A stretch of DNA of 64,000 bases, taken from positions 1-64,000 of the forward strand of contig NZ_LMOH01000027.1 in the NCBI RefSeq assembly GCF_001423245.1, written 5' to 3'. Position 1 is the first letter of the stretch, and each line of letters begins with the position of its first letter. The notes under the pieces were generated by a model. The model ran no database searches, was not told where the DNA came from, and saw only the letters and a program-made list of their open reading frames with translations. Shown here in pieces: positions 4,984 to 7,095 of the stretch. This stretch comes from Aureimonas sp. Leaf324. Lineage in GTDB: Bacteria > Pseudomonadota > Alphaproteobacteria > Rhizobiales > Rhizobiaceae. The translations under genes and the position numbers were made by a program.

Positions 4984-7095
4984 TCAGTAGGGCGCGTCGA
5001 CGCGACCGAGATTGACGTAGACGCTCTTTGCCTGCGTATGCGCGAGGAGCGCGGCGCGCCCGTTCTCGCGCCCGAGGCCGGATTCCTTGGCACCGCCGAA
5101 GGGCAGCTCGATCGGCGTGATGTTGTAGGTGTTGATCCAGGTCGTGCCGGCCTCGAGCCGGGCGACGACGCGGTGGGCGCGCGCAAGGTCGCGCGTGAAG
5201 ACGCCGGCGGCCAGCCCGAAGCGCGTGTCGTTGGCGCGCGCCACCACCTCGTCCTCGCCCTGGAACGACAGAACGGTCATCACCGGGCCGAAGATCTCCT
5301 CCCGCACGATCGTCATGTCGTCGCGGCACCCGTCAAAGATCGTCGGCTCGACGAAGTAGCCCCGGCCGAGCGCGTCGGCGATCACCCGGTTGCCGCCGCA
5401 CAGGAGCTTCGCGCCGCCGCGCCGCCCCTCCTCGATGTAGGAGAGGACCTTGTTCATGTGCGTCTGCGAGATCAGCGCGCCGACCTGCGTCGCGGGATCG
5501 GCGGGATCGCCGACCACCATGGCGCGGGTGCGCGAGGCGAGCTTCTCGAGGAAGGCCTCGCGCACGTCCTCGTGCACGAAGACGCGCGTGCCGTTGGAGC
5601 AGACCTCGCCGGCGGAATAGAAGTTGGCGAGCATCGCCCCGCCCACGGCGTCGTCGAGATCGGCGTCGGGAAAGACGATCAGCGGCGACTTGCCGCCGAG
5701 TTCCAGCGTCACCTGCTTCAGGGTGGTGGCGGCGTCCGCCATCACCTTCTTGCCGGTGCCGACCTCGCCGGTCAGCGAGATCTTGGCGATGCCGGGATGG
5801 CGCGACAGGAGGCGCCCGGTGCGCCCGTCGCCCTGCAGGACGTTGAAGACGCCGGGCGGCACGCCGCACTCGGTCATCACCTCGGCGAGCTTCAGGGCGG
5901 TCAGCGGCGTCAGCTCGGCCGGCTTGAAGATGAAAGCGTTGCCGGCGGCGAGCGCCGGGGCGGCCTTCCAGCAGGCGATCTGCAGCGGATAGTTCCAGGC
6001 GCCGATGCCGGCGACGAGCCCCAGCGGCTCGCGCCGGACATAGCCGAAGGCGGCGGGCCCGAGATCGACATGCTCGCCCGCGATGCCGGCGGCGAGCCCA
6101 GCGAAGTACTCGATGCAGTCGGCGCCCGACAGGACGTCGACGGCGATCGTCTCCTGGATCGGCTTGCCGGTGTCGCGGGTTTCGAGAAGCGCGAGCTCCT
6201 CGTTGCGCTCGCGAAGCCGCATGGCGACGCGGTTGAGGATGCGGCCGCGCTCGGCCCCGGTCATCGCGCCCCAGGTGCGCTGCGCCTCGCGGGCCGCGGC
6301 GACCGTCGCCTCCACCTCGGCCTCGCCGGCCATCGCGATCTCGGCGATCGTCTCGCCGGTCGCTGGATTGACGGTGGCGAAGGTTTCGGTGCCCTCGCGC
6401 CAGGGAAGATAGGCGCCTGCGACATGGCTCGTCAGCACCGGGGCGCCGGCGGCGCGCGGCGGCGCCTTCGCCCGCTCGCCGGTGCTGAGCGGCCGCGCCT
6501 CGGCGATCTGCGCGTCGGTGAAGCTCGTCGCGATGGCGCGGGCCAGCGTGCTGTCGGCCTCGCCGGCGTCCGACAAGGAGGACCGCAGCCACAGGCCGTC
6601 GATCACGGCGGCGATCGCCACCGCGATGCGCGCGGCATCGTCGGCCGCCACCAGCCTCTTCAGGTCGTGACGCAGGTTGGAAAGCATGCGCTGCTGGTAG
6701 ACGCGCTGCACGCGCTTCAGCCGCGCGGAATGGAGGACCTGACCCCAGAAGGCGAGCCACACGGACCCCGTGCGCCCGTCGAACTCTTCCGGCGCGAGGT
6801 TGGCGTCGATCACGCTCTGGATGCGCTCGCGCGGCGTCTCGGCGCGCTTCAGCCGCCAGCGTGTGCCGTCCGAGACGCGCGAGGCGAGGTGCCGCAGCGT
6901 CGCTTCGAGAAGCCCGTCCTTGTCGCCGAAATAGTGCGAGACGAGCGAGGGCGCGACGCCGGCGCGGCCCGCGATCTCCGACAGGCTCGCGGCGGCGAAG
7001 CCGACATCGGCCAGCGCCTCGATCGTCGCCTCGATCAGCTGCCGGCGCCGCTGGTCCTCGGAGCCGAAGCGGGGGGCGATGGAAAGGCGGGTCAT
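4984..7095 (-). CDS. betIB: BetI-BetB fusion: choline-responsive TetR repressor joined to betaine aldehyde dehydrogenase
   Basis: One uninterrupted 703-residue frame. Residues 1-200 are BetI: a TetR HTH ([22 protein letters not shown], about 39-60) and the BetI ligand domain. Residues about 225-703 are a full betaine aldehyde dehydrogenase (aldehyde to glycine betaine, NAD(P)-dependent), with [12 protein letters not shown] (363-374), the catalytic Glu466 in LELGGKS and the catalytic Cys499 in SAGEVCSNG. The join is a Pro/Ala-rich linker at about 201-235. In most bacteria these are two adjacent genes. A GTG at 6438 could in principle restart BetB, but nothing resembling a ribosome site precedes it. 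The start at 7095 has GGAGA upstream; the longer start at 7143 overlaps a likely operator. Confidence 0.9.

Follow-up and report, generated by a model that had tools for sequence, protein, structure and literature searches.

Trifunctional PutA combines an RHH DNA-binding domain with proline dehydrogenase and P5C dehydrogenase (PMC5293562), and MocR regulators couple a GntR domain to a sensory domain that resembles an aminotransferase (PMC5320631). According to the accessible text of PMC7876524, choline relieves repression by BetI, and BetI of Acinetobacter baylyi leaves the DNA when choline is present. A fusion of BetI to BetB was not found in the literature searched, which lay mostly outside subscription journals and included the available parts of PMC7824335, PMC9063841, and PMC7876524; "fused" in the accessible part of PMC7824335 refers mainly to methyltransferases. 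Among the PDB matches listed (60 of 274), no BetI-BetB-type fusion was seen by name. A preliminary description of the locus reported here stated that known bet operons encode BetI and BetB separately; the fusion turned out to be an old and widespread form that exists beside the separate one.

The window is the whole 64,000-nucleotide stretch of DNA that was analysed, from Aureimonas sp. Leaf324 (genome G000). Its minus strand is open from 4984 to 7143, with 719 aa counted from the first ATG. The start of the betI-betB fusion gene is likely the ATG at 7095, giving 703 aa (4984..7095, minus strand, stop codon 4984-4986), because the 98%-identical gene of G002 has that in-frame ATG only and because the upstream ATGs in the window sit in or beside an operator-like site. 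The BetI half (residues 1-198; 6502..7095, minus strand) contains the TetR_N DNA-binding domain with its HTH (PF00440, residues 20-65, 6901..7038, minus strand; 48.5 bits, Pfam cut-off 24) and the BetI-type C-terminal domain TetR_C_6 (PF13977, residues 88-197; 92.1 bits, cut-off 27). It is joined by a linker (residues 199-222; 6430..6501, minus strand) to the BetB half (residues 223-703; 4987..6429, minus strand), which matches Aldedh over residues 232-692 (Pfam, 579.3 bits) and the NCBIfam betaine-aldehyde dehydrogenase model NF009725 over residues 223-703 (768.5 bits, cut-off 593), and narrowly misses the equivalog TIGR01804 (666.2 bits vs a cut-off of 668.6). The TetR_C_6 and Aldedh matches are separated by 34 residues, TetR_N, TetR_C_6, and Aldedh were the only Pfam domains detected, and an in-frame stop between the two halves is absent. 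The single open frame joining a complete BetI to BetB, as first described, was thus confirmed. Of the two catalytic residues named in that description, Cys499 (codon 5599-5601, minus strand) is correct, and the glutamate given as Glu466 is Glu465 (codon 5701-5703, minus strand). Asn368 and Lys391 are likewise present, and all four residues are invariant across 52 aligned fusions, an alignment that left out the catalytically dead forms of Kaistia described below.

The structure of the window fusion was predicted using AlphaFold2 with an alignment of 52 fusions (mean pLDDT 84.3, pTM 0.67). The model has two folded domains. BetI is helical as far as residue 199 and is connected to the ALDH domain by a low-confidence tether at residues 205-212 (pLDDT <50). 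Values of pLDDT <50 were also obtained at ALDH residues 655-668 and 672-687, and the low pTM means that the placement of one domain relative to the other is not confidently predicted. The modelled ALDH domain has a fold like that of the betaine aldehyde dehydrogenases 6wsa and 2wme (TM 0.89 by target; rmsd 10.6-10.8 over the whole alignment). We read the product as one bifunctional chain, an autorepressor and an enzyme, and infer its translation as a single chain. The BetI half is predicted to bind DNA in a choline-responsive manner, and the BetB half to oxidise betaine aldehyde with NAD(P) as cofactor.

A full-length, stop-free fusion was found in 20 of the 21 Aureimonas genomes (71-100% identity), each of which has its top BetI-type match in the fusion (91.7-109.4 bits). 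A second TetR protein over the Pfam cut-off was found in seven of the 20 (43.8-70.2 bits). The window itself has a second, weaker BetI-type TetR at 62099-62434 on the minus strand, which scores 44.6 bits for PF13977 and lies in a 222-aa frame. In the window's genome, the next matches to the fusion among those listed are ALDHs at 41-42% identity. Across the 20 Aureimonas genes, pN/pS is 0.85 for linker residues 199-222 vs 0.30 in the BetI half and 0.28 over residues 241-703 of the BetB half; both halves are intact and under purifying selection. The linker occurs in several length variants, its net length changes keep the frame, and stops are absent. The sequence of the linker is almost free to vary and its reading frame is not, a pattern that translation of the two halves as a single chain would produce. 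In place of the fusion, the remaining genome of the genus (G018) carries paired betB and betA genes from a different lineage (58% identity). No BetI-type match was found in G018 at E 1e-10 and a laxer scan gave one TetR (39.1 bits); at its locus (L080, 17 kb), an operator-like site within 3 mismatches was not found.

Beyond the genus, named genomes were scanned using a profile of the BetI half and two BetI-clade peptide patterns, and the best 80 of 138 relatives were kept. By the score cut applied, both halves are in one frame in 79 of these 80; because the selection took the top of the 138 and relied on the two patterns, this proportion is no frequency. One locus counted among the 79 (L119) has a frame break inside the ALDH half, and the 80th is that of Kaistia adipata, with an ALDH half that is in frame and too degenerate for the cut. 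The hosts are Aureimonas, Ancylobacter, Azorhizobium, Kaistia, Methylobrevis, Faunimonas, and Rhodomicrobium, and the fusion is also found in MAGs labelled Caulobacterales, Sphingomonadaceae, Steroidobacteraceae, and Gammaproteobacteria. Close relatives share TetR and Aldedh in one chain, within the genus (20 of 21 genomes) and in other families. In evenly drawn samples, counted as full-length stop-free matches listed under the E limit of each search, the fusion was found in at least 15 of the 397 genomes sampled from the order (7 families), 3 of 385 genomes of the class (the window's own included), and 8 of 394 genomes of the family (all of the window's genus). Dead-ALDH forms like those of G761 and G782 fell below the limit of the order sample and were met only in two other searches. 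A further BetI-BetB fusion is borne by a plasmid of Komagataeibacter saccharivorans (L178:5031-7061). It is the one annotated fused relative that was examined, and its whole chain is labelled merely betB, so such regulators may hide in annotation.

The fusion gene is followed on the same strand after 16 bp by betA, encoding choline dehydrogenase (3297..4967, minus strand; TIGR01810, 817.5 bits, cut-off 732.1). The choline ABC transporter genes are divergent from it on the plus strand, with choX for the substrate-binding protein (7458..8405; TIGR03414, 464.1 bits, cut-off 379.05, scanned from 7428), choW for the permease (8497..9357; TIGR03416, 413.6 bits, cut-off 363), and choV for the ATPase (9354..10550; TIGR03415, 511.6 bits, cut-off 483.75, scanned from 9420). 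Across 85 fused loci, some of which end early, a same-strand betA is present in 80, a divergent choX in 71, and choX, choW, and choV together in 60. Seven of the 20 Aureimonas loci (L073-L079) have choX without choW and choV. A promoter and terminator scan of 7000-7600 found nothing.

The region separating the fusion gene from choX contains two operator-like palindromes. O1 (7132..7147; TTGAATGATTGATCAA when read on the gene strand) is about 50 bp upstream of the start and has 3 mismatches to TTGAACGNNCGTTCAA, and O2 (TTGAACGGACGTTCAA; 7309..7324) is on the choX side and has no mismatch to TTGAACGNNCGTTCAA. The motif is presumably the one that goes by the name of BetI box, and we take palindromes of this type as putative BetI-binding sites, that is, as a candidate BetI box. 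Two matches in the 64-kb window are no more than chance, as 39 of 100 shuffles had as many. Loci were scanned with up to 3 mismatches, reading one strand. In the 20 Aureimonas loci, 41 operator-like matches were found in 20 x 420 bp upstream of the fusion vs 3 in 319 kb elsewhere; at least one upstream match is present in 20/20 of these loci and at least two in 19/20. A match within 450 bp was found in 60 of 64 further fused loci, one of which (L113) is from Aureimonas; only the non-Aureimonas loci test the pattern independently, because it was drawn from the same Aureimonas regions. When whole genomes were scanned allowing up to 2 mismatches, matches to the pattern outnumbered those to its reversed control in 16 of the 21 genus genomes, at least twofold in six. 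G010, G012, G003, G014, G016, and G019 have two- to fourfold as many operator-like sites as the reversed control at this limit, and further BetI targets are possible in them. The count for the window's genome is 8 vs 7 for the reversed control, and a wider regulon is not claimed.

The best explanation of the anatomy, conservation, synteny, and operator-like sites, with a probability of about 0.78, is a bifunctional BetI-BetB autorepressor and enzyme that would repress both betIB-betA and choXWV. The protein would consist of an N-terminal BetI repressor of the TetR type, a flexible linker, and betaine aldehyde dehydrogenase at the C-terminus. The BetI half would dimerise and bind the two palindromes between the fusion gene and choX, which would repress betIB-betA and the importer choXWV until choline or its oxidation product is present, and the ALDH half would then turn betaine aldehyde into glycine betaine. 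Less surely, the ALDH half may aid assembly of the repressor or sensing, with enzyme state and DNA binding influencing each other. Such a part for the ALDH half in control, as a trigger enzyme, fits the architecture, and we put it at rather below even odds.

A passive tether, for which the odds are likewise rather below even, would leave BetI and BetB acting as they do when separate, joined for equal dosage and without coupling of catalysis to DNA binding. It agrees with a linker that is flexible and nearly neutral in evolution. It also agrees with the sites at separate betI loci, which often have similar operator-like palindromes (19 of 32 rows, among which L178 is fused and two rows are one genome); TTGATTGAACGTTCAA is a site of this type at a separate betI in Burkholderia. 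The phylogeny bears on it through an unfused BetB of genus g126. In a BetI tree of 101 rows, all 71 fused rows form one clade (bootstrap 98, SH-aLRT 92), which adjoins separate betI-betB pairs from other families. The BetB trees roughly agree with the BetI tree, with exceptions. Some separate pairs nest among fusions in the BetB tree, and the Komagataeibacter fusion is probably a second fusion event, because its BetB half is placed far off (quick tree method) and its branch inside the fused BetI clade has a length of 3.3. A single fusion event as a certainty was dropped on both counts. In the BetB tree, holding the fused rows together without g126 was rejected (p 0.001) and holding them together with g126 was not (p 0.08), so one fusion with later losses would be compatible with this tree in the sense of not being rejected. 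The g126 BetB falls in or beside the Aureimonas/fused clade (inside-versus-beside test, p 0.36), and from this position the enzyme can probably work without the BetI half, as a passive tether would allow. At the two g126 loci (L081 and L082), an orphan BetB very near the Aureimonas BetB half has no adjacent betI, and the neighbour of betB is an oxidoreductase-like gene; the BetI half was possibly lost in g126. Against the passive tether stand three Kaistia ALDH halves that have stayed open after loss of their catalytic residues, a stop-free survival that is unlikely under neutrality.

The fusion was found in 6 of 14 Kaistia genomes, and a stand-alone match to the fusion-type BetI at E 1e-30 was found in none of the 14. 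The ALDH half is intact in G642, G772, and G1168. The catalytic Asn, Glu, and Cys are lost in G715 (K. granuli, L125), G761 (K. adipata, L133), and G782 (L246), partly via different deletions, and the frames stay at 673-686 aa. No BetB-level match (cut-off 593 bits) was found in K. granuli or K. adipata, the two genomes covered by this search. Four of the six fusion-bearing genomes have a match to the choline dehydrogenase subfamily (cut-off 605 bits). The match scores about 900 bits and adjoins the fusion only in G642 and G772; G761 (717 bits) and G1168 (731 bits) have weaker choline-dehydrogenase-like genes elsewhere that are over the cut-off, and none over 605 bits was found in G715 or G782. 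We take only the fusion-adjacent matches of about 900 bits as betA, and none is present beside the fusion at L125 (K. granuli) or L133 (K. adipata). In both of these species, choXWV adjoins the fusion and operator-like sites are present, one of them mismatch-free in K. adipata; one site is visible upstream in G782. On a plain reading, the dead-ALDH protein of Kaistia would persist as a repressor of the choline importer, with an ALDH half needed beyond catalysis. The dead halves and the conserved operator-like sites together favour, without proving, some role of the ALDH half in regulation or structure.

Alternatively, the constraint on the dead halves may be relaxed and not yet lost. It is unlikely that the ALDH half is a dying passenger, its decay in Kaistia having left an open frame by luck and being uninformative on regulation. 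This explanation draws on the raised pN/pS of the ALDH half, which is 0.53-0.72 among the three dead genes (0.15-0.23 for their BetI half) and 0.40-0.79 between dead and intact ones, vs 0.06-0.10 between intact ones. It is opposed by a neutral simulation, in which the frame remained stop-free in just 0.3-4.8% of runs for each dead gene, and by the gap runs that separate the dead halves from the nearest intact half (5, 4, and 9), all of which keep the frame in a protein-level alignment. The K. granuli half, moreover, still folds in AlphaFold2 (mean pLDDT of the fusion 82.3) using an alignment that contains intact relatives, which aids folding in the model. Low confidence in this model is found at residues 200-207, 325-341, 428-440, 468-470, and 630-646, and two of these stretches coincide with the missing catalytic segments.

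A further explanation is that the gene gives two products, with an internal start at the junction yielding free BetB in addition to the fusion. In 4 of 6 sister loci (L211, L212, L214, and L216, two of them near-identical), separate betI and betB overlap at ATGA, with betB in a different frame from betI and GGAC preceding the ATG of the overlap. Of 66 fused loci (L112-L177), three lacked the anchor motif and 63 were examined for an internal ATG; 19 have one in frame at the position where betB originally began. The rare Gly codon GGA lies four codons before that ATG in 13 of the 19, and GGA makes up 48 of 1261 Gly codons across these genes. The 13 loci with both, mostly Ancylobacter, are L112, L120, L121, L123, L124, L127, L129, L130, L134, L137, L138, L145, and L149. 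The old ribosome-binding site and betB start seem to be kept in Ancylobacter-type fusions and gone in Aureimonas; with both retained, free BetB may arise in the Ancylobacter-type fusions too. In the 20 Aureimonas genes, the place where betB once began has no conserved in-frame ATG, GTG, or TTG. An internal start or ribosome-binding codon was sought in the window linker, and only a GTG without a Shine-Dalgarno match was found. An internal start is thus likely in Ancylobacter-type fusions and was absent from the window gene where sought. The 19 ATG codons, the GGA before 13 of them, and the GGAC of the sister loci are what speaks for two products; with a conserved ATG or ribosome-binding codon absent throughout Aureimonas, window included, this explanation is quite improbable. 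Proteolytic separation of the halves is possible. A sequencing or assembly artefact that deleted a stop between two genes has a negligible probability and was rejected, since nothing was found in its favour and the same stop-free frame is present in 20/21 genus genomes and in other families, and with it fall the two refutations named in the preliminary description, a frameshift error near the junction and the occurrence of only separate proteins in close relatives (20/21 genus genomes and 79 of the best 80 loci are fused).

The preferred reading, a bifunctional BetI-BetB autorepressor and enzyme, may be extended, tentatively and at well under even odds, to a family of trigger enzymes that the literature searched does not describe. 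The ALDH half would be the metabolite gate of the fused BetI. In Kaistia, where catalysis and the neighbouring betA would have been lost first, the ALDH fold would have become a pure sensor or assembly domain of an importer repressor, as in MocR. The series would run from the ATGA overlap through a fusion with the old start and an obligate fusion to a pseudo-enzyme regulator. The induction of BetI is not settled, and the fusion, which ties the repressor to the next enzyme of the pathway, makes betaine aldehyde, NAD, or flux directly testable as part of the signal. Related species supply the forms to compare, one intact, one with an internal start, and one with a catalytically dead enzyme.

The window gene is like BetI of betIBA operons (PF13977) in its HTH and BetI-type ligand domain, its position before betB/betA, and its upstream palindromic operator-like site. 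It differs in that BetI stands alone at about 200 residues, whereas the window protein has a whole enzyme as a C-terminal extension and 703 residues. Its BetB half is like BetB (NF009725; 2wme, 6wsa, and 3r31) in a family score over the cut-off, catalytic residues, and fold, and unlike BetB it has a DNA-binding repressor at its N-terminus. The nearest parallel is trifunctional PutA (PMC5293562): like it, the fusion would combine autogenous repression with aldehyde oxidation by a dehydrogenase in a single polypeptide, and its DNA-binding part is likewise N-terminal. PutA has RHH and proline dehydrogenase domains, whereas the fusion has TetR and no proline dehydrogenase domain, and membrane switching is not indicated; we infer that the fusion arose independently of PutA. 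The dead Kaistia proteins are like MocR (PMC5320631) in retaining an enzyme fold inside a regulator; the folds differ (GntR and aminotransferase in MocR), and the enzyme of the fusion is intact in nearly all members seen. The fusion belongs to neither PutA nor MocR. If the reading is true, the fusion would, alongside PutA, provide a second and independent example of an aldehyde-oxidising dehydrogenase that carries its own repressor, located in alphaproteobacteria and in MAGs labelled Gammaproteobacteria.
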